A stretch of 9,230 nt of DNA from an uncultured Cellvibrio sp. (GTDB lineage Bacteria; Pseudomonadota; Gammaproteobacteria; Pseudomonadales; Cellvibrionaceae). Both the position numbers and the translations under genes were made by a program. Positions 87-9,230 of the stretch are shown here, piece after piece. The stretch is taken from assembly GCA_946482385.1 (NCBI GenBank), contig CAMLRI010000046.1, positions 1 to 9,230 on the forward strand, in the 5' to 3' direction. Position 1 is the stretch's first letter. Each line of letters starts with the position of its first letter. Under the pieces are notes generated by a model. The model had not been told where the DNA came from. It did no database searches and worked only from the letters and a program-made list of their open reading frames with translations.

Positions 87-1466
87 TTAAATTTCTTCAC
101 GCCAGGGCTTTTTCGCCTCGTAGCTGGCCAGGCGCGCTTTGATTTGGGCATCTGGCAGCCCCAGCTTGGTAGCGTCTTTCAGGGTTTTTTGCTCCCATTT
201 CACAGCTTTTTTAAAGTCGCCATTTTCTGCTGCCACAGCGGCTTGTACTTGGAAGAGAGTTTGTTTATCCAAGTAGTCGTCTTCATCCATATCGGAAATA
301 TAATCCTGTGCCAACTTGCCATTACGTTTGTTTTGATCTGGGTGGGTGCTGAGCAGCCACGCCAGGCGTAAGCGTGCTGCCGGGTAATTGCTGGCCGCCT
401 TTTGTAGCCAGAAAAAACCGTGTTCTTCATTTTTTTCAAAATGGGCGCCACTGAAAGATTCAATCGCCAGGGTATAGCGCGCATCGGCAAGGTTATTTTT
501 GGCGGCTCTGAGCAACCAGGCCATGCTTTGTTGGCTGTCGGCGCTACACATGTTTCCATACAAAATGTTGCGGCCTAAAAAATAACTGGCTGTGGTATTT
601 CCCGCTTCTGCCGCTGCTGTGTACCAGGTGTTTGGGTTATCTGGCAATGAGTAGTTTTTAAGGAGCGAAGGAACAGTTTCCAGGGTAAAGGCATAGGCCA
701 GCTTTTCGGTATGGCTGCCTTTTTCTGCTTTTTCTTTAAGGGCTGTTAGTTGTTTGTCCACTTTTTTGTGGTCGTAGGCGCTGCCTTCCAATGCAAATAC
801 GAAGCGTCTTTTTACCCCGGTGCTTGTTACAGGTTTGCCTTCAACTTGCATGGGTTCGAATTGCCATTGGCGAAAGGCATTAATGGCGGCGCGACTAAAA
901 GCTTTGTCGGTACTGTAATAAACAATGTGGTCGCGGGTGGTTCCATCTTTTTCAATAGTGAAAATGATATCCACTATGCCATTTGCACCCGATTTGGCCA
1001 TGCTCGATGGATACTCGGGTATGGCCTGCTTGATGATTCGATAATTGGTGGCTTGGCTGTTGGTGCCAATATAAACAGGTGTCATTAATTTTTTAATGGC
1101 ATCCTCGCCATATTGTTGTTGTAGTTGCTGAAGGCGAGCATCTGCCTTTTTTTGATCATCCGGCGATAACTTTTGATAAATTTTTTTATGCAGTTCACCG
1201 CCTTTGGGGGTTTCTCCTAAGGCAATCCAGGCGAACCCCTCTATTTTGTTTTGGGGTACGAATTCACCGCGGTAATGCATTACGCCAATATTAAATTGCG
1301 CGTCCTGGTCGCCATATTTGGCTGCGTTCATGAATTGTTGGTAGGCGGCCTGGAATTCACTTTTATCGTAATACTGCATGCCCACTTCAAAGCTGGCAAA
1401 AACTGGAATGCTCCACAGCAAAGCACAAAAGGCAGTGAGTAACCGCCGTGGCTTGGGGTAATTCAT
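87..1466 (-). CDS. Periplasmic Sel1-repeat protein with internal TonB C-terminal domain
   Basis: Encodes 459 aa. The start at 1466 is chosen because AAGGAG lies 5 nt upstream; an in-frame ATG at 1490 adds 8 residues but has no such site. Residues 1-24 form a signal peptide (basic PKPRR, hydrophobic core, VFA end). Residues about 26-85 are a Sel1/TPR-like repeat (GDQDAQFNIGVMHYRG). Residues about 144-226 match the TonB C-terminal fold, with IPEYPSSMAKSG at the beginning and AFRQWQFEPMQVEGKPV near the end. Further Sel1-like repeats follow from about 280 to 375 (AAEAGNTTASYFLG; GFFWLQKAASNYPAARLRLA). Sel1 repeats bind protein partners, and TonB-C domains bind outer membrane receptors or cell wall. 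No N-terminal anchor helix beyond the signal peptide and no proline-rich spacer are visible, so it is unlikely to be a working ExbBD-driven TonB. It is co-directional with the lipoprotein gene, 25 nt downstream of that gene's stop. The exact role is unknown. Confidence 0.85.
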   Translation of the reverse strand: MNYPKPRRLLTAFCALLWSIPVFASFEVGMQYYDKSEFQAAYQQFMNAAKYGDQDAQFNIGVMHYRGEFVPQNKIEGFAWIALGETPKGGELHKKIYQKLSPDDQKKADARLQQLQQQYGEDAIKKLMTPVYIGTNSQATNYRIIKQAIPEYPSSMAKSGANGIVDIIFTIEKDGTTRDHIVYYSTDKAFSRAAINAFRQWQFEPMQVEGKPVTSTGVKRRFVFALEGSAYDHKKVDKQLTALKEKAEKGSHTEKLAYAFTLETVPSLLKNYSLPDNPNTWYTAAAEAGNTTASYFLGRNILYGNMCSADSQQSMAWLLRAAKNNLADARYTLAIESFSGAHFEKNEEHGFFWLQKAASNYPAARLRLAWLLSTHPDQNKRNGKLAQDYISDMDEDDYLDKQTLFQVQAAVAAENGDFKKAVKWEQKTLKDATKLGLPDAQIKARLASYEAKKPWREEI

Positions 1467-1491
1467 GATGGCTCCTTGTTGATCGATCATA

Positions 1492-2143: not shown

Positions 2144-2896
2144 TTAATCCCTATTGCCTGCATTTTCCAATATCTGCGCATACTCCCCGGATTCCTGCAG
2201 TGCCATTAATCCCTGGTCCAGTTGTTGGGCAAACCAGCTTGCGTGCGGGTTCTTGCGTGAGAAGGCTACGTAGACGCCGCCGCTGTGGTTGAGGAAGCGT
2301 TTGTCCAGCGCCTCTTGTGCCAGGGTCATGTGTTGCAGGGCGTAGGCGGCCTCTTGTTCGAACATCAATACCGCATCAACACGCCCCTGTTTTAGCAGGC
2401 GGATCAGTTGGGTCTGTTGCGCTACACGCACTTCGCTAAAACGGTGGCGCTGGCTTTCATAGGCATCGCCGTATTCGTAGTCGAGGATAACCCCCACGCG
2501 GAAATTATCGGGAATCGCCTCCAGGGATTGGATATGTGTGTGGGCGCCTGGCAGGAAGTACCAGTGGGAACTAAGCGTGAGCAGCGGCACCTTGCCGAAG
2601 ACGAATTTTTTGCGCGTGCTCTTTTGCAGGGTGACGTTGTAGCCGCCGTCGATTTTGCCCGAGCTCAGGTCGTGTAATACCCGGGCGTAGGGTTGCACAT
2701 AAAAGCTGGGCTCTATGCCCTGGTGTTTAAAGGCGGCTTTGACCAGGTTGGTGGATATGCCCAGGCCGCGTTCGTCGGTGTAGGGGGGCCAGGAGTTTTC
2801 GGCGCCCAGGCGGATGGCGTGGGGTGATGAGCCTAGCGCAGGCAGGCTCAAGCCCAGGCATAGGCCCAGGCAGGCGTAAATCCAGAGTTTATTCAT
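2144..2896 (-). CDS. Family 3 periplasmic solute-binding protein
   Basis: Encodes 250 aa, the usual length for the SBP_bac_3 family (substrate-binding proteins for polar amino acids and related small molecules). Residues 1 to about 22 are a signal peptide (LWIYACLGLCLGLSLPALG). The mature protein opens with IRLGAENSWPPYTDERGLG, the typical first strand and ligand-binding loop. It continues with LSSGKIDGGYNVTLQKSTRKKF, the position of the family's conserved D-G segment, and LLKQGRVDAVLMFEQEAAYAL in the second lobe. No ABC permease or ATPase gene is adjacent, so it may be an orphan binding protein or a signalling type; the ligand cannot be read from sequence. No clear Shine-Dalgarno site or promoter is visible upstream of the ATG at 2896. 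It lies 100 nt upstream of the lipoprotein gene on the same strand, and whether it shares that transcript is uncertain. Confidence 0.85.
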   Translation of the reverse strand: MNKLWIYACLGLCLGLSLPALGSSPHAIRLGAENSWPPYTDERGLGISTNLVKAAFKHQGIEPSFYVQPYARVLHDLSSGKIDGGYNVTLQKSTRKKFVFGKVPLLTLSSHWYFLPGAHTHIQSLEAIPDNFRVGVILDYEYGDAYESQRHRFSEVRVAQQTQLIRLLKQGRVDAVLMFEQEAAYALQHMTLAQEALDKRFLNHSGGVYVAFSRKNPHASWFAQQLDQGLMALQESGEYAQILENAGNRD

Positions 2897-3154: not shown

Positions 3155-3183
3155 TTGATATTGATAATAATTATCATTAATAT
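3155..3183 (+). promoter_or_regulatory. Sigma70-type promoter for the iron uptake genes
   Basis: A -35 box TTGATA (3155-3160, 5 of 6 to consensus) is separated by exactly 17 bp from a -10 box TAATAT (3178-3183, 4 of 6). It points toward the receptor gene, whose ATG is 64 nt downstream of the -10 box. The spacer is AT-rich and contains the complete Fur box, which would place the repressor directly under RNA polymerase. The exact -10 is uncertain because the surrounding region is AT-rich. Confidence 0.65.
3157..3176. promoter_or_regulatory. Fur box (iron-responsive operator)
   Basis: Bases 3162-3176 read TGATAATAATTATCA, a perfect 7-1-7 inverted repeat that equals the classical Fur core. The 19-mer at 3157-3175 agrees with the consensus GATAATGATAATCATTATC at 17 of 19 positions. 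Fur with Fe(II) binds such sites and represses iron acquisition genes. The location inside the promoter spacer and the downstream siderophore receptor both support an operator for rightward transcription. Confidence 0.9.
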
Positions 3184-3247: not shown

Positions 3248-5599
3248 ATGACCATACGCAAACCAGATTCCGGGCATATCCGTGCCAAAAAACGCACTCC
3301 CTCTACTCCCTTGATGGCCACGGCGCTGTCATCCGCCATGTTGTTGGCTGCGGCGCCCCTGCTGGCGGCCGATACCAATGCGCCGGCCGAGGGTAAAAAA
3401 CTGAAAACCGTTAGGGTTGAGGCGGAAGCTATTGCCCCTGTTTATAAAGCAGAAAAGGCCAGCTCCCCCAAACAAACCCAGCCATTGCTGGATACCCCCC
3501 AAACCCTGGTGGTGGTGAAAAAAGAGTTGTTCCAACAGCAGTCGGCTACCACCTTAAGCGAAGCCCTGCGCAACACTCCCGGCATTACCATGCAGATGGG
3601 CGAGAACGGCAACACTGCCACTGGCGATTCCATTTTTATGCGCGGGTTTGATACCCAGGGCAGTATTTATGTGGATGGTATCCGCGACCTGGGCAGCATC
3701 ACCCGCGACACTTTTAATACCGAGCAGGTGGAAATCGCCAAGGGCCCCGCTGGTTCCGATAACGGCCGCGGTGCCGCTTCCGGTTATGTCAACATGAGTT
3801 CCAAAGTGGCTAACCAGGAAGATGCAGCAACCGGCGCGGTGATTGGCGGAACTGCCGATTACAAGCGCGCCACTCTGGATGTAAACCGCACCCTGGGCGA
3901 ATCATCGGCACTGCGTGTGAACCTGCTGAAACAGGATGCCGGTGTGGATGGCCGCGATAAAGTCGAAAGCGATTTCCAAGGCTTTGCCGCCTCCCTGGGT
4001 TTGGGGTTGGGCACCGACACCCGCACCTACATCAATTACCTGAATATGCAGCAGTCCGGTATTCCCGATGGCGGCATAGCAACCATCGGTTTGGATGGTT
4101 ACTACAACGCGATTTTCAGCAGCACTGGCGCATTGGCCGGCGAAACCCCGGAGCGGGTGGATAGCGAAAATTTCTACGGCTCTAGCCGCGATTACAACGA
4201 TGTAAATGCCAATATGTTTACGGTGCGTGTTGAGCAGGATTTGGCTAAAGATGTTGTGCTGCGCAATACCTCGCGCTATGGCCGTACCAACCAGGACCAA
4301 GTATTAACCGGCGTTAATGCCATTACCTTTACCACCCCGGAAGATCCCTCCAGCTGGACACTGGCACGCAGTCGCCAAGGGAAAGATATCAGCACGCAAA
4401 TCCTCACCAACCAAACCAACCTCACCGCCACCTTTATGACCGGCGGGTTGCAGCATGAGCTGTCATCGGGTGTGGAATTTATTTATGAAAACCAGGTGAG
4501 TTTTGGTGTGGGCCTGCCCTATACCGCGGCTGATTCCGCCACCCGCGTCACCCAGGCGCCAGCCAATCTCTACAACCCCAGCACGGGTGATCTATTCCAG
4601 CCGGTGGTGCGCGATGGCACCAAGATTGATGGTGAGGTAACCACTTACAGCCTCTACGCGCTGGACACCATTACCTTTAACCCGCAATGGGAAATGAACC
4701 TGAGTTTGCGCGCCGACCGCTTCCACGCCAACACCACCCAAATTACCCGCCAGGGTACAGGTGCGGATGTACCCGTGGGCACTTATTTGGGCAGCGAAGC
4801 GCATTTGGTCGATGAACTACTCAGCTGGAAACTGGGCGGCGTGTACAAGCCGGTAGACGATGGTTCCATCTACCTGGTTTACGCTAACACCGAATTGCCG
4901 CCTGGTGGCGCCAACCTGCAATTAAATACCACCAATGCCGTTAACAACCTCAACAACCCTAACCTGGACCCACAAAAAGGCACCAACCTGGAGCTGGGCA
5001 CCAAGTGGAATTTGTTGGGCGACAAATTGTTCTTCACGGCCGCTGTATTTAACAGCAGCAACGACAATGAAATTGCCACCAACCCCGATGGCACCAGTGT
5101 GCAAGTGGGTGAAACCCAAGTGAAAGGTATAGAGCTGGGTTTAGTGGGCGCTATTACCGAGCAATGGCAAATCAGTGCCGGCCTGGCCAAGATGGATAGC
5201 GAAATTGTGCGCGGCAATCGCACCTCGGCCAACAATGGCGCCAGCAATACCGAAGGTGGTGCGGTGCGCTTCTCGCCCGAACTGACCTTTACCCTGTGGA
5301 ATAGCTACACCTTTGGCAATGGTTTGATGCTTGGTGGTGGTGCGCGTTTTGTGGATACCCAACGCAACACCAGCTTAACCAGTGAGCAGGCGCTGGGTGG
5401 TAGAACCCTGTATGAAATCGACGACTACTGGGTGCTGGATGCCATGGCCTCTTACCCGGTGAATAAAAATGTCAGTGTGCAATTAAACCTGATGAACCTC
5501 ACCGATGAAGATTATGTGGCCAGCTTTAACAACAGCGGTGCCCGCTACTACCCGGGTGCACCCTTGGCGGCGCGCTTGGGGGTTAACTTCGCCTTTTAA
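3248..5599 (+). CDS. fiu: TonB-dependent catecholate siderophore receptor, Fiu-like
   Basis: Encodes 783 aa, a normal length for outer membrane siderophore receptors. It would bind a ferric siderophore and import it using TonB energy. A long basic N-region leads into a signal peptide with cleavage near LLAA (residues 38-41). A likely TonB box is KTVRVEAEA (53-61). The plug spans about 79-185, with TPQTLVVV, LSEALRNTPGI, FMRGFDTQGSIYVDGIRD and FNTEQVEIAKGP. The rest is a beta barrel with alternating aromatic strands, and it ends in NFAF, the C-terminal Phe signature of outer membrane proteins. Many stretches recall E. coli Fiu (GENGNTATGD, RDTFNTEQVE, YLNYL-like strands, LTNQTNLT, PPGG, LWNSY), which imports catecholates and monomers such as dihydroxybenzoylserine. 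AAGG about 8 nt upstream supports the ATG at 3248; Met23 has no ribosome site. It is under the Fur-box promoter and is followed by piuC, as fiu is by ybiX in E. coli. The exact siderophore is unknown. Confidence 0.92.
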   Translation: MTIRKPDSGHIRAKKRTPSTPLMATALSSAMLLAAAPLLAADTNAPAEGKKLKTVRVEAEAIAPVYKAEKASSPKQTQPLLDTPQTLVVVKKELFQQQSATTLSEALRNTPGITMQMGENGNTATGDSIFMRGFDTQGSIYVDGIRDLGSITRDTFNTEQVEIAKGPAGSDNGRGAASGYVNMSSKVANQEDAATGAVIGGTADYKRATLDVNRTLGESSALRVNLLKQDAGVDGRDKVESDFQGFAASLGLGLGTDTRTYINYLNMQQSGIPDGGIATIGLDGYYNAIFSSTGALAGETPERVDSENFYGSSRDYNDVNANMFTVRVEQDLAKDVVLRNTSRYGRTNQDQVLTGVNAITFTTPEDPSSWTLARSRQGKDISTQILTNQTNLTATFMTGGLQHELSSGVEFIYENQVSFGVGLPYTAADSATRVTQAPANLYNPSTGDLFQPVVRDGTKIDGEVTTYSLYALDTITFNPQWEMNLSLRADRFHANTTQITRQGTGADVPVGTYLGSEAHLVDELLSWKLGGVYKPVDDGSIYLVYANTELPPGGANLQLNTTNAVNNLNNPNLDPQKGTNLELGTKWNLLGDKLFFTAAVFNSSNDNEIATNPDGTSVQVGETQVKGIELGLVGAITEQWQISAGLAKMDSEIVRGNRTSANNGASNTEGGAVRFSPELTFTLWNSYTFGNGLMLGGGARFVDTQRNTSLTSEQALGGRTLYEIDDYWVLDAMASYPVNKNVSVQLNLMNLTDEDYVASFNNSGARYYPGAPLAARLGVNFAF

Positions 5600-5625
5600 T
5601 TCGGTGTTTGTTGTCGGCCAACCCG

Positions 5626-5660
5626 GCCGGATGCGCATTAGTTGCGCATCCGGCTTTATT
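5626..5660 (+). terminator. Hairpin after receptor gene, possible partial terminator
   Basis: A perfect 12-bp GC-rich stem (5626-5637 with 5643-5654) closes a 5-nt loop TTAGT and is followed by TTTATT. The U tract is short, so termination is probably incomplete. A partial terminator here would give more receptor than downstream enzyme mRNA. It could alternatively act as a 3' stabilising structure for the receptor transcript. Confidence 0.6.
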
Positions 5661-5661
5661 G

Positions 5662-5691
5662 CGAGAGAGCACCTTTCGAGAGAGCACCTTT
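5662..5691 (+). repeat. 15-bp perfect tandem duplication covering the piuC ribosome site
   Basis: CGAGAGAGCACCTTT occurs twice in a row (5662-5676 and 5677-5691), ending one base before the piuC ATG. Each copy carries the purine-rich GAGAGAG that would act as the Shine-Dalgarno element, so the site is duplicated. The downstream copy places GAGAG about 8-10 nt from the start, and the upstream copy is too far to serve it. Confidence 0.9.
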
Positions 5692-5692
5692 T

Positions 5693-6373
5693 ATGTTGAT
5701 TCATATTCCCGCCGTGCTAAGCAAACAGCAGGTGGCGGAATTTCGCGCGCAGCTGGCGCAGGCCGAGTGGGTGGATGGCCGCGCCACTGTAGGCGTGCAG
5801 GGCGCGCAGGTGAAAAAAAATCGCCAACTGCCGGTGGATGGCCCAGTGGCGCGGGCGCTGGGGGAAATTATTTTAAAAGCCCTCTACGCCAACCCGGTGT
5901 TTATGGCAGCGGCCTTGCCCTTGCGCATAGTGCCGCCACTCTTCAACGCTTACAGCGGTGGCGAGCACTATGGCTTCCATGTGGATGGTGCAATTCGCCT
6001 GCTGCCCAACAGTAATTTAAGCCTGCGCACCGATGTTTCCTCCACACTATTTTTATCGGAGCCAGATGAATACCAAGGCGGCGAATTAATCGTGCAGGAC
6101 ACCTACGGCAGCCATGAAGTAAAACTGCCCGCCGGCGATTTAATTTTGTATCCCTCCACCAGTTTGCACCAGGTGGCGCCGGTTACGGCGGGTGAGCGGG
6201 TATGCAGTTTTTTCTGGACGCAAAGCATGGTGCGCGACGATTGGCAGCGCAATTTGTTGTACGAATTGGATTGCAATATCCAATCCCTGCGGCAACGGCT
6301 TGGCGATTGCGATGAGCTGCTGGGTTTGACTGGCCACTACCATAACTTGCTACGGCAATGGGCGCAGGTTTAA
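5693..6373 (+). CDS. piuC: PKHD-type Fe(II)/2-oxoglutarate oxygenase PiuC (YbiX)
   Basis: Encodes 226 aa and is strongly reminiscent of E. coli YbiX in length and sequence ([49 protein letters not shown]). It belongs to the prolyl-4-hydroxylase-like 2OG-Fe(II) dioxygenases. The facial triad is His96-x-Asp98 and His159, and Arg169 sits where the 2-oxoglutarate carboxylate is held. No signal peptide is seen, so it is cytoplasmic. The substrate of the family is not firmly established; its constant linkage to catechol siderophore receptors suggests a role in siderophore or iron handling. The start at 5693 matches the conserved family N-terminus ([10 protein letters not shown]); an in-frame ATG at 5642 would add 17 residues read from the hairpin and the duplicated repeat and is rejected. 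The next gene begins 3 nt after its stop, implying co-transcription and possible coupling. Confidence 0.93.
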
Positions 6374-6376
6374 TCC

Positions 6377-6985
6377 ATGGCCAGCAAAGGTTTTTTTTAC
6401 ATGGGCAGCCTGCGCCAATGGCACTGGGTCAGCTCGGCAATTTGTTTAATTGGCATGCTGTTGTTTGCCATTACCGGTATTACCCTCAACCACGCGGCGC
6501 AAATTCCGGCGGAGCCGCAGGTCACTCATATTCAGGTGGAAGTGCCTGATCGCGTTTTAAAAGCCATAGCTATTCCCGATGCAGACAATGCGCCCCTGCC
6601 AGAGGCACTGCTGGACTGGTTGCAGTCCAGCCAGGGTATTGATGCAAAAAATAAAATGGCCGAGTGGAGTGAGGATGAGATTTATCTCTCGCTGCCGCGT
6701 CCCGGCGGCGACGCCTGGTTGAGTATTGATTTGCACAGTGGTGCGCTGGAATACGAACTGACCGAGCGGGGTTGGGTGGCGTTTTTTAACGACCTGCACA
6801 AGGGCCGCCACACAGGTGAAGCTTGGCGCTGGTTCCTCGATTTTTTTGCAATTGCCTGCATTATTTTTTGTATAACAGGTTTGTTGTTGTTACAGCGCTA
6901 TGCCGGTGGCCGCCCCGCTACCTGGCCAATGGTTGGCCTGGGTTTGGTGTTGCCCTGGGTGTTAATTTTGTTGTTTGTGCATTAA
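6377..6985 (+). CDS. PepSY-associated TM helix protein, putative electron-transfer membrane subunit
   Basis: Encodes 202 aa with three predicted membrane helices: about 18-36 (VSSAICLIGMLLFAITGI), about 153-174 (FLDFFAIACIIFCITGLLLL) and about 183-201. A periplasmic PepSY-like region lies between the first two helices (strand LSIDLHSGALEYEL, then WVAFFNDLHKGRHTG). His16 (RQWHW), His39 (NHA), His141 and His145 lie at membrane edges and are candidates for heme or metal binding, as proposed for PepSY-TM proteins of iron reductase systems. The last helix ends at the C-terminus. The start is uncertain: ATG 6377 has only a weak AGG upstream, while Met9 (6401) follows AAAGG with a 9-10 nt spacer, and both keep the conserved core. 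It sits 3 nt after piuC and 18 nt before the DUF2271 gene. The likely role, by inference, is carrying electrons across the inner membrane for siderophore-iron reduction. Confidence 0.82.
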   Translation: MASKGFFYMGSLRQWHWVSSAICLIGMLLFAITGITLNHAAQIPAEPQVTHIQVEVPDRVLKAIAIPDADNAPLPEALLDWLQSSQGIDAKNKMAEWSEDEIYLSLPRPGGDAWLSIDLHSGALEYELTERGWVAFFNDLHKGRHTGEAWRWFLDFFAIACIIFCITGLLLLQRYAGGRPATWPMVGLGLVLPWVLILLFVH

Positions 6986-7003
6986 AAAATTAGGATGAAA
7001 TTT

Positions 7004-7534
7004 ATGAAATTATCGTTAGCAAAAAACCTGGGCTTAGTGGCGCTGTGGCTGTGCAGCGGCCAGGTTGCCGCCACCAACCTGGATATCAGCCTGGAAATTC
7101 CCGCTTTAAAGGTGGCGGAATACCATCGCCCCTATGTGGCTATTTGGCTGCAAAACGACAAGGGCGAAAACATTAACCTGGCGGTGTGGTACCAGTTGGA
7201 AGAGCGCGGCCAGGTAAGTGATAAAGGTGAAGAGTGGCTGAAGGATATGCGCCAGTGGTGGCGCCGTATTGGCCGCAGTACAGATATGCCGGTAGATGGC
7301 GTGAGCGGCGCCACCCGTGCGCCCGGCAAGCACAGTATCCGTTTTACCGAAGGCAGCGCGCCCCTGGGCACATTGGCAGCGGGCAATTATGTATTGCTGG
7401 TTGAGGCCGCGCGCGAAGTGGGTGGCCGCGAATTGGTAAAAGTGCCTTTTACTTGGCCGGTAAAAAGTGCAACTGCCAGCAGCGCCAAGGGCAGCAGTGA
7501 GTTGGGCGAAGTGACATTAACCCTTAACCCCTAG
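7004..7534 (+). CDS. Periplasmic DUF2271 protein with candidate flavinylation motif
   Basis: Encodes 176 aa of the DUF2271 family. The start at 7004 is preferred because AGGA lies 8 nt upstream; for the in-frame ATG at 6995 the AGG abuts the start codon and cannot serve it. Residues 1-23 are a signal peptide ending VAA, so the protein is periplasmic. Family features are YHRPYVAIWLQN (40-51), INLAVWYQ (57-64), EWLKDMRQWWRRIGR (77-91) and DGVSGATRAPGKH (98-110). The last stretch resembles the D-x-x-S/T-G-A-T sequence whose Thr receives FMN from ApbE in NqrC and RnfG; here that Thr would be Thr104. DUF2271, DUF4198 and PepSY proteins tend to be encoded together, and an electron-carrier or reductase partner role fits that grouping. 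Flavinylation is a hypothesis, and no apbE gene is inside the window. Confidence 0.85.
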   Translation: MKLSLAKNLGLVALWLCSGQVAATNLDISLEIPALKVAEYHRPYVAIWLQNDKGENINLAVWYQLEERGQVSDKGEEWLKDMRQWWRRIGRSTDMPVDGVSGATRAPGKHSIRFTEGSAPLGTLAAGNYVLLVEAAREVGGRELVKVPFTWPVKSATASSAKGSSELGEVTLTLNP

Positions 7535-7574
7535 TAGCAGGGCATCAACATTTTTTAATTTACAGGAGTCAAAC

Positions 7575-8402
7575 ATGAAAAAATTATTGCAAGCTGCGCT
7601 GTGTGCGGCACTGGTGATGTCCCTGCCTTTAAGTGTGCAGGCCCATCGCGCCTGGCTATTGCCCAATGCCACCGTGTTGTCAGGCGATGATGCCTGGGTG
7701 AGTGTGGACGCGGCGGTATCCAACGATATTTTCCATGCCGACCACGCGCCCATGCGCCTGCAGGATTTACTGATTGTGGCGCCGGATGGCAAAAAATTGG
7801 CCGCACAAAATATGAGTACCGGCAAATACCGCAGCGTATTCGATGTGTAGTTGCCGCAAAAAGGCACCTACAAAATTGCCATTGCTTCCAGCGGCTTAAT
7901 GGCCACTTGGAAAACCGCCGAGGGCGAGCGCCGCATGTGGCCGGGGCGAGGTGAAAAAGCCAATCCCGCCGACTTTAACAAGATGGTGCCGAAGCAAGCC
8001 CAGGATTTACAGGTGTCGCAATTTTCCCGCCGTATGGAAACCTTTGTCACTGCCGGTTCACCAACGGATTCTGTGTTTAAACCCAGCAACCAGGGTTTGG
8101 AATTGCTGCCCATTACCCACCCCAATGATCTGTTTGCCGGCGAAGCGGCGGAGTTTCAGTTTTTAATGGATGGCAAGCCCGCTGCCGATGTAAAAATTAC
8201 TCTGATTCCCGGCGGTATGCGCTACCGCAATGCGCAAAATGCCATTGAAGTTAGCACCGATAAACAGGGCAAATTCAGCCTGGTTTGGCCGCACGCGGGC
8301 ATGTACTGGTTAACTGCCAACTACAGCGATAACAAAGCCAAAAAGCCCGCTACCCAGCGCCGCGGCAGCTACAGCGCTACTTTTGAAGTGCTGCCGGAAT
8401 AA
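7575..8402 (+). pseudogene. DUF4198 periplasmic protein interrupted by an in-frame amber codon
   Basis: Read through, this is a 275-codon DUF4198 gene, a normal family length. AGGAG lies 6 nt before the ATG at 7575. The signal peptide ends VQA (residue 23), and the mature protein begins HRAWLLP, the typical DUF4198 opening, whose N-terminal His could help bind a metal. At codon 92 (7848-7850) a TAG follows FDV and precedes LPQKGTYKIA. The same frame continues without a gap to TAA at 8400-8402, with family-like VLSGDDAWVS, ITHPNDLFAGE, DVKITLIPGG and HAGMYWLTANYSD. CAG to TAG is the simplest origin, since Gln fits FDV-x-LPQKGTY. It could be a real nonsense mutation, a suppressed amber or an assembly error. 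The rest of the frame has no decay, which argues for a recent event or an error. DUF4198 proteins are periplasmic, often near metal uptake genes, with no proven activity. Confidence 0.85.
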
Positions 8403-8430
8403 GTACTAGCGGAATAAGTGCTGCCGAAAT
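8386..8430 (+). repeat. 15-bp tandem repeat, three copies, across the DUF4198 stop codon
   Basis: Three 15-bp units run end to end: 8386-8400, 8401-8415 and 8416-8430, with consensus AAGTGCTGCCGGAAT. The first encodes the last residues of the DUF4198 protein (EVLPE). The following TAA recurs at the same place in the next two units, giving stops at 8400, 8415 and 8430 in one frame. It appears to be a local duplication of the 3' end of the gene. Confidence 0.88.
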
Positions 8431-8439
8431 AATTTCGGC
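8423..8439. other. Short hairpin formed by the last repeat unit
   Basis: GCCGAAAT (8423-8430) and ATTTCGGC (8432-8439) are perfectly complementary, giving at least a 7-bp stem with a 3-nt loop. No T tract follows, so it is not a terminator by itself. It directly precedes the stronger terminator-like hairpin at 8448-8487. Confidence 0.5.
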
Positions 8440-8447
8440 GATTGATA

Positions 8448-8487
8448 AAACAAAAACAGCATCCTTATGCAGGTGCTGTTTTTGTTT
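8448..8487. terminator. Bidirectional terminator-like hairpin before the flavoreductase gene
   Basis: A perfect 14-bp inverted repeat (8448-8461 with 8474-8487) has A-rich left and T-rich right arms (AAACAAAAACAGCA against TGCTGTTTTTGTTT). A T-G wobble and one C-G pair extend it inward, leaving an 8-nt loop. The T-rich arm gives a U tract in rightward transcripts. It would end most transcription after the DUF4198 gene, so the next gene may depend on readthrough or its own promoter. Confidence 0.75.
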
Positions 8488-8521
8488 GTGGCCTTGCTGT
8501 GAAAAAGATTGGGTGTTGCTT

Positions 8522-9230
8522 GTGAATGTTTTGTTCGCCTGCTTATTGCTAGTGGCTTATGTGTTGTTTTGTGGCTGGTGCTGGCGCCGTTACGCTTGGC
8601 AGGCAAGCGATATGCGCGGTGCCGCTGCCGCCGATTGCATTATTGGGTATGCCAGCCAGGGCGGCAGCGCCCTGCGTATAGCCCGGCAAACCCAGCAACA
8701 ATTGCAGCAGGCGGGGCAGGGCGCACTGCTCTTGCCGCTGAATCAAATTACCAGCGCGCAATTATTGCAGGCATCCACCTTGTTGTTGGTGGTAAGTACC
8801 TATGGCGAAGGCGAGGCGCCGGATAACGGCAATCGTTTTATTGCCAACAGCCTGGCGCCCTTGGGGAATCGCCAGCTGGCACATCTGCGCGTGGCGCTTT
8901 TGGCGCTGGGCGATTCCAGTTACCAAGATTACTGCGGTTTTGGCCGCCGCCTGCAACACCAATTGCATCAGCGTGGCGCGCAGTTGCTAAGCGACGCGAT
9001 TGAAGTGGATCGGCTCGATGCGAGCGCGCTGCGCCACTGGCAATATTATCTCGGCCAAATTAGTGGCCATTCGCAATTTAGCGATTGGTCAGCGCCCCGC
9101 TATAGCGATTGGCTGTTGCTGCGGCGCGCCTGCATCAACCCCGGCAGCCTGGGGGCGCCGGTATTTCACTTGCAACTGCAACCGGCAACCGGCGCTATCG
9201 CCATGGATAGCTGGCAAGCAGATCGGAAGA
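8522..9230 (+). CDS. Membrane-anchored CysJ-like flavoreductase, N-terminal part
   Basis: An open frame runs off the right edge (236 codons visible). Residues about 3-20 are a hydrophobic anchor (VLFACLLLVAYVLFCGWC) followed by WRRYAW, which suggests a cytoplasmic catalytic part. A flavodoxin-like FMN domain follows: phosphate loop IIGYASQGGSALRIA (40-54), STYGEGEAPDNG (92-103) and LLALGDSSYQDYCGFG (126-141), all hallmarks of the CysJ, P450 reductase and nitric oxide synthase reductase class. From about 195 the linker to the FAD/NADPH part begins. The family moves electrons from NADPH through FAD to FMN, and here the acceptor is probably the PepSY membrane protein. GTG 8522 is chosen because GGTG lies 6 nt upstream; GTG 8513 and TTG 8516 are alternatives. 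The final residues (DRK, 9221-9229) come from probable adapter sequence and are not trustworthy. Confidence 0.85.
   Translation, partial: MNVLFACLLLVAYVLFCGWCWRRYAWQASDMRGAAAADCIIGYASQGGSALRIARQTQQQLQQAGQGALLLPLNQITSAQLLQASTLLLVVSTYGEGEAPDNGNRFIANSLAPLGNRQLAHLRVALLALGDSSYQDYCGFGRRLQHQLHQRGAQLLSDAIEVDRLDASALRHWQYYLGQISGHSQFSDWSAPRYSDWLLLRRACINPGSLGAPVFHLQLQPATGAIAMDSWQADRK
9220..9230 (+). other. Probable Illumina adapter remnant at contig end
   Basis: The last 11 bases read AGATCGGAAGA, identical to the first 11 bases of the TruSeq adapter (AGATCGGAAGAGC). The protein frame here reads SWQA and then DRK. Flavoreductases of this class normally have a W-x-A-G-D type motif at this point, so homology seems to break exactly where the adapter match begins. 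Confidence 0.75.

Follow-up and report, generated by a model that had tools for sequence, protein, structure and literature searches.

The window analysed here is a whole 9,230-nucleotide stretch from an uncultured Cellvibrio sp. of the Cellvibrionaceae (contig CAMLRI010000046.1 of assembly GCA_946482385.1). From position 3248 to the window end, six genes lie on the plus strand, encoding in order an outer-membrane receptor, a PiuC-type dioxygenase, a PepSY membrane protein, a DUF2271 protein, a DUF4198 protein and a flavodoxin-domain protein. We think it probable that this is a Fur-controlled iron-acquisition locus, in which a PepSY-like, flavinylation-dependent electron chain is joined to a receptor-dioxygenase pair of the Fiu/PiuC (CciT-CciO) kind. 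The cluster is a well-formed new example; its core machine has already been described in other bacteria. A first-pass annotation, made from the sequence letters, had listed a Fiu-like receptor, PiuC, a three-helix PepSY protein, DUF2271, DUF4198 and a flavoreductase on one strand, and profile searches matched these families.

The gap between PiuC and PepSY is 3 base pairs (bp), that between PepSY and DUF2271 is 9 bp, and that between DUF2271 and DUF4198 is 40 bp; the reading frames of the receptor, PiuC, PepSY and DUF2271 are all intact. The nearest loci among relatives, L001, L002 and L003, are Cellvibrio or Cellvibrio-like, and their PepSY proteins are 73-74% identical to that of the window. 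A three-protein tree, a quick build with several long branches from which L007 and L060 were left out (DUF2271 was not found there), groups the window with the same three loci.

Genes and candidate control signals of the locus

The receptor (3248-5599, plus strand) is a TonB-dependent outer-membrane protein of the Fiu/CciT type, which passes the NCBIfam Fiu equivalog model NF007349 with 766.8 bits against a cut-off of 686. Next to it lies a 2-oxoglutarate/Fe(II) dioxygenase of the PiuC/YbiX/CciO type (5693-6373, plus strand), with scores of 354 bits for NF003975 (cut-off 180) and 73.7 bits for PKHD_C. NF003973 and NF003974 are likewise above cut-off, and the YbiX-specific NF003972 is below. 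The protein has an HxD...H arrangement, H96-x-D98 and H159, which we take to be the dioxygenase triad. Upstream of the receptor, a Fur-like operator at 3157-3181 (plus strand) holds two overlapping matches to GATAATGATAATCATTATC, which we take to be the Fur consensus: 17/19 bases at 3157 and 16/19 at 3163. The site at 3157-3175 is the best of the whole window, and 2000 first-order Markov simulations of the 351 bp upstream never gave 17/19 (simulation mean 11.6), in keeping with the Fur control of the receptor that had been proposed from the letters.

The PepSY protein (6377-6985, plus strand; 202 residues) is a candidate transmembrane cytochrome b. It matches PF16357 (281.8 bits) and PF03929 (41.4 bits), both above cut-off, and has a single PepSY domain and three hydrophobic peaks, with one beta region between the first and second transmembrane (TM) segments. 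His16, His141 and His202 are present in all 81 aligned rows. FoxB, FpvG and HiuB are also membrane PepSY proteins, with conserved histidines at the membrane faces for which haem binding is known or has been proposed; the three window residues are candidates for such a role. Membership of the strict FoxB family of two-domain siderophore reductases (FoxB/PiuB) was rejected, the protein having one domain and three helices. FoxB was not among the 50 Foldseek matches listed for the predicted fold and no match reached an E value of 0.001; a weak FoxB match appeared only in realignment. A sequence search of the PDB with the PepSY protein gave nothing meaningful, and the same was true of DUF2271.

DUF2271 (6995-7534, plus strand; PF10029, 159 bits) is a candidate covalent carrier of flavin mononucleotide (FMN). 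It shows no TM peak and, judged by eye, has a signal-like N-terminus, as expected of a periplasmic protein. Its DGVSGAT motif (7295-7315, plus strand; Asp101 to Thr107) contains a candidate SGAT site of the kind to which ApbE attaches FMN covalently. Thr107 is found in 108/108 aligned rows and the strict form [ST]GA[ST] in 77/108. Flavinylation of a DUF2271 protein has been demonstrated experimentally in another species (PMC8238504). With a predicted flavinylation substrate (159 bits, SGAT) in the same cluster, the window PepSY protein belongs to the PepSY-like flavinylation systems, of which an ApbE gene in the cluster is a frequent and not an obligatory mark. A dedicated ApbE within the complete Cellvibrio-type clusters was rejected: no ApbE match was found in the flanks of L001 or L003, the two complete clusters of this type, and both genomes encode ApbE on other contigs. 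The window itself ends inside the reductase gene, and anything downstream, including any ApbE there, is beyond its view. Elsewhere, in L098, L099, L100 and L106, DUF2271 is fused behind an ApbE-like domain (a weak match of 37 bits in L106), and ARPT or ARAT replaces the flavinylation motif in L098, L099 and L100; these loci of about 3 kilobases (kb) gave no PepSY match.

DUF4198 (7575-8402, plus strand) is a secreted protein with a His at its predicted mature N-terminus. Its PF10670 match falls into two pieces, of 48 and 140 bits, split by an in-frame TAG at 7848-7850. The first-pass annotation thus named the family correctly but missed that the gene is not intact. A full-length database protein of 275 residues shares 98% identity with the second piece, which has 183 residues, so the TAG is a sequencing error or a recent lesion; 39 relatives in alignment A2 read without a stop. 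The N-terminal His after signal cleavage (the cleavage site being judged by eye) is present in 101/102 rows, and His57 (87/102) and His182 (99/102), in window numbering, are candidate second ligands. Structure comparison of an intact relative gave Zcp and IsDUF4198 as fold matches. The relative from L001 also matches Zcp entries in a PDB sequence search (E 5.6e-05 and 9.8e-05); the one from L012 found no PDB sequence match. IsDUF4198 (9GCB) and Zcp (9MHx) thus share the fold, and IsDUF4198 shares the N-terminal His, but the other metal ligands (His18 of IsDUF4198; His29, His31 and His142 of Zcp, mutated in one entry) are not obviously kept in place. One paper used zcp as a Zur-regulated control in gonococcus, its identity with the Zcp of the PDB being assumed.

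A 16-bp hairpin (8448-8487, plus strand) in the gap that separates DUF4198 from the flavoreductase may be a terminator or attenuator; the folded region 8436-8500 reaches -27.1 kcal/mol (z -5.2). L001 has a strong but different hairpin in the corresponding gap (about 10103-10168, z -5.2), and the 38 nucleotides folded there in L003 have none (z -0.04). Because of this hairpin a single uninterrupted operon is not assured: the six genes do share a strand, as first read, but may not form one transcription unit. Attenuation is possible, and would lower expression of the reductase relative to its periplasmic partners. Folding revealed the hairpin, which a pattern scan of the window did not list; that scan found 7 terminator-like sites against 9.5 in shuffles and 5 promoter-like sites against 5.5, counts that support nothing.

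Only the 5' part of the last gene, encoding a membrane-anchored flavodoxin/FAD/NAD(P)H reductase (FAD, flavin adenine dinucleotide), lies in the window (8522-9219, plus strand, with an assumed GTG start). It comprises one hydrophobic segment and the flavodoxin half that follows, matched from about 8522 (PF00258, 82 bits). The full-length relatives in L001 and L003 have 500-502 residues with flavodoxin and NAD-binding domains, from which the window protein would be predicted to have an NAD(P)H half as well. Of the membrane-anchored NADPH-type flavoreductase originally described, the anchor and flavodoxin domain therefore stand, but the predicted NAD(P)H half would fall outside the window, the gene being cut by the contig end. 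Identity with CysJ was rejected for the L001 and L003 relatives, which score 209 and 205 against a TIGR01931 cut-off of 668 and carry an N-terminal hydrophobic segment before their CysJ-like domains; the window piece is too short for this judgement. The final bases, 9220-9230 (plus strand), read AGATCGGAAGA, which we take to be the start of the Illumina adapter. It occurs in none of 200 shuffles, and the window protein departs from its L001 relative at this very point. The bases thus look like adapter read-through, an artefact, and the protein read into them is wrong.

Gene linkage among relatives

Relatives were taken as the best 80 of 191 confirmed loci, ranked by PepSY similarity, a set rich in Achromobacter and Stenotrophomonas. 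Short contigs were kept in the counts, and some of the genes scored as missing are located past the end of a contig (L002, L005, L007, L015, L057, L060 and L071 are short or end near the core); changes in ApbE were counted with L002, L005, L057 and L071 left out. Around the 80 PepSY genes, DUF2271 was found 78 times, DUF4198 79, the flavoreductase 67, ApbE 63, a receptor 34 and PiuC 28. Rare co-occurrence, which would have told against the scheme first proposed, is thus not what the core shows: DUF2271 and DUF4198 accompany PepSY in nearly every locus. Since PiuC is found in a minority, we regard the electron chain as the stable module and the receptor-PiuC pair as an optional attachment. Separately, L011, L036, L041, L052, L058, L068 and L069 hold the core and ApbE with no detectable flavoreductase, and another electron donor may serve there.

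The second anchor was a set of 61 genomes, all of one family group with G001, which carries L001. Of these, 23 pass the cut-off for DUF2271, 22 for PKHD_C and all 61 for ApbE. The surroundings of 30 DUF2271 matches, of which one is below cut-off and two overlap, contain PepSY in 23 cases and DUF4198 in 22. Among the 11 Cellvibrionaceae-group genomes with both DUF2271 and PiuC, five (G001, G041, G047, G062 and G065) place PiuC within 5 kb of DUF2271, against a chance expectation that we estimate at about 0.2% per genome (10 kb of some 4.5 Mb). The receptor-PiuC pair is therefore linked to the core more often than by chance, but in a minority. The conserved linkage to Fiu/PiuC that the first-pass annotation named as a check is accordingly present in part, but no single receptor goes with the core.

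Importers and regulatory sites were compared as well. An ABC importer nearby was rejected: FecCD was on the PepSY contig in none of 15 genomes (some contigs being short, that of L002 9.2 kb, so that absence counts for little there), and elsewhere in 13 of the 15. FeoB_C was found in 8 of the 15, including all three of Cellvibrio type. Absence of FecCD and presence of FeoB_C fit periplasmic iron release without proving it. In two Cellvibrio-type genomes about 6.5 kb separates FeoB from an ApbE gene (G001:C1 1466632-1474131 and G003:C71 184887-192231). The best sites upstream of the receptors in L001, L002 and L003 reach only 13/19 of the Fur consensus, little above the simulation mean. Fur-like scores of at least 13 within 420 bp around the PepSY start occur in 10 of 57 core loci, compared with 19 of 1140 stretches drawn at random from these loci; the stretches were unmatched for A+T content, and composition may explain part of the excess. 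The 57 exclude 13 loci provisionally classed as having PiuC directly upstream (a list with L058 and without L026).

Much of this arrangement has precedents. PepSY-like clusters with DUF2271, DUF4198, ApbE and NAD-binding domains have been described, with iron reduction as the proposed function (Meheust 2021, PMC8238504). As described there, these systems resemble the window in combining PepSY (PF16357/PF03929) with DUF2271, DUF4198 and often an NAD-binding domain; they differ in that no ApbE was found in the complete Cellvibrio-type clusters, and in the Fiu receptor and PiuC joined in front. The Caulobacter homologues CC_3059-3063 are reported to be Fur-regulated (PMC3751524), and insertions in CCNA_03155-03159 to lower fitness in ethylenediaminetetraacetic acid (PMC12004947). 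This Caulobacter set also has PepSY (a "transporter" in one paper), DUF2271, DUF4198 and a sulfite-reductase-type flavoprotein, but by these accounts ApbE lies between DUF4198 and the flavoprotein and the receptor-dioxygenase pair is at another locus. The pairs CciT-CciO, Fiu-YbiX and PiuA-PiuC join a receptor to a 2-oxoglutarate dioxygenase, as in the window, where a full electron chain follows downstream on the same strand.

Linkage between the two parts is also on record. Next in frequency as neighbours of CciT/CciO come PepSY_TM and Sel1 genes, reported from fewer than 25% of genomes (PMC12004943), and a Stenotrophomonas Fur regulon includes pepSY, a receptor gene, Sel1 and piuC, whose locus tags are close to one another (PMC6240677). 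DUF4198/DUF2271 pairs are reported beside iron-responsive receptors (PMC7190382), a TonB-dependent transporter linked to the FoxB-like HiuB (PMC12424826), and piuB, of PepSY type, adjoining piuA in P. aeruginosa (PMC10866019). The pieces of the array and their pairing are thus already in print. In the open-licence literature we found no study of the receptor-PiuC-PepSY-DUF2271-DUF4198-flavoreductase array as one unit.

Proposed electron route and its alternatives

From the gene content, order, motifs and linkage above, we infer cofactors, electron direction, substrate and a role for DUF4198 as follows. Under iron starvation, the receptor would import a ferric complex, probably that of a catecholate, as far as the periplasm. 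The membrane-anchored flavoreductase, facing the cytosol, would take electrons from NAD(P)H and relay them via FAD and FMN to a PepSY-bound haem, and PepSY would hand them to FMN covalently attached to DUF2271 by an ApbE encoded in trans. DUF2271-FMN would then reduce ferric iron in the periplasm. DUF4198, with its metal-binding fold and mature N-terminal His, probably binds the divalent metal once it is set free, or carries it to an Fe(II) importer of the inner membrane, for example Feo, and PiuC would act on the cytosolic side. The first-pass annotation had drawn the route from flavoreductase to PepSY to DUF2271 to a periplasmic ferric complex, and this matches published systems but is incomplete: it lacked the covalent FMN set on DUF2271 by ApbE and, while it included the DUF4198 gene, missed that the family binds metal. 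If the proposal is right, a receptor, an electron donor, a membrane cytochrome, a flavin carrier and a putative metal escort would be encoded together in a compact, testable setting. It would then become possible to find out where PepSY siderophore reductases get their electrons; as the general idea has been published before, the surprise is limited.

Some points of the scheme first drawn are weaker. PiuC lies directly upstream of PepSY (ending at most 350 bp before it) in only 13 of the 80 loci, and, being cytoplasmic, it had no role in that scheme. The missing ABC importer, cited at first as fitting periplasmic release, extends to the relatives but is weak evidence, because many siderophore receptors have no neighbouring importer. 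Finally, FoxB and FpvG are described as having two PepSY domains and four TM helices, against one and three in the window protein (PMC10866019).

The strongest alternative, which we judge an even call and which is compatible with our proposal, is that the electron chain works as a ferric reductase of general use in the periplasm, belonging to the Fur regulon and shared by many receptors; its place behind Fiu and PiuC would then reflect co-regulation and not a dedicated channel. Besides the 13 loci just mentioned, the fetched flanks of 52/80 loci, some of them short, hold no PiuC. The tree asks for 5 changes for PiuC directly upstream and 11 for any PiuC link, the genome-level association of PKHD_C with DUF2271 is weak (11/23 genomes with DUF2271 against 11/38 without), and the two Caulobacter modules are reported at distant locus numbers (CCNA_00027-28 and CCNA_03155-59; PMC12004947). 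However, the proximity of PiuC to DUF2271 in 5/11 genomes is far above the chance estimate, and the pair has been attached in several arrangements: upstream, downstream and on the opposite strand.

A more detailed form of our proposal is doubtful when taken as a whole. It posits that the locus encodes every link of a wire from electron donor to ferric siderophore, and a metal escort besides: the flavoreductase, a PepSY protein acting as a dimeric half-FoxB, DUF2271-FMN and DUF4198 as a periplasmic Fe(II) carrier with an N-terminal His. The half-FoxB would have to dimerise because His16, on the cytosolic side, has no conserved partner within the molecule; haems would then sit between His16 and His16' on the inner face and at His141/His202 on the outer face. 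Such a wire would supply the electron donor of FoxB-type reductases, which for FoxB is described as unknown (PMC13038864); the window encodes a candidate donor alongside.

It is unlikely that the ferric siderophore instead enters the cytosol intact through a permease and is degraded or modified there by PiuC, the PepSY chain being auxiliary. CciT function is reported to need the cytoplasmic dioxygenase CciO strictly (PMC12004947), and PiuC has been proposed to metabolise an imported siderophore conjugate (PMC12004943). However, FecCD is absent from the PepSY contigs of the 15 genomes and PiuC from most core loci.

Still less likely is that the core reduces or handles copper, nickel or zinc in place of a ferric siderophore. 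IsDUF4198 is reported to bind nickel with a dissociation constant of 18 nM (PMC12537917), Zcp structures carry Zn, Cu and Co, the PepSY_TM protein CrpH is said to support copper oxidases, and CciT-CciO to affect copper resistance (PMC12004943). Yet the window has a Fur-like box and a Fiu-type receptor, the Caulobacter homologues are described as Fur-regulated with iron-chelation phenotypes (PMC3751524, PMC12004947), and in alignment A2, compared by sequence position, no His stands at mature position 18, where IsDUF4198 has its second nickel ligand. That the cluster is non-functional in its source organism, with DUF4198 broken by the TAG, is very improbable, given the four intact frames, the near-identical 275-residue protein and the leftover adapter, which suggests that the assembly may hold errors.

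Flanking genes

An Rfam search of the window gave no RNA family at the gathering threshold. On the minus strand, window positions 87-1490 encode one protein with Sel1 repeats and a TonB C-terminal domain, Sel1 genes being a published frequent neighbour of CciT/CciO. Closer to the cluster, 2147-2896 (minus strand) encodes a divergent SBP_bac_3-type periplasmic protein, which is kept beside the cluster in L001, L002 and L003 (56-57% identical).

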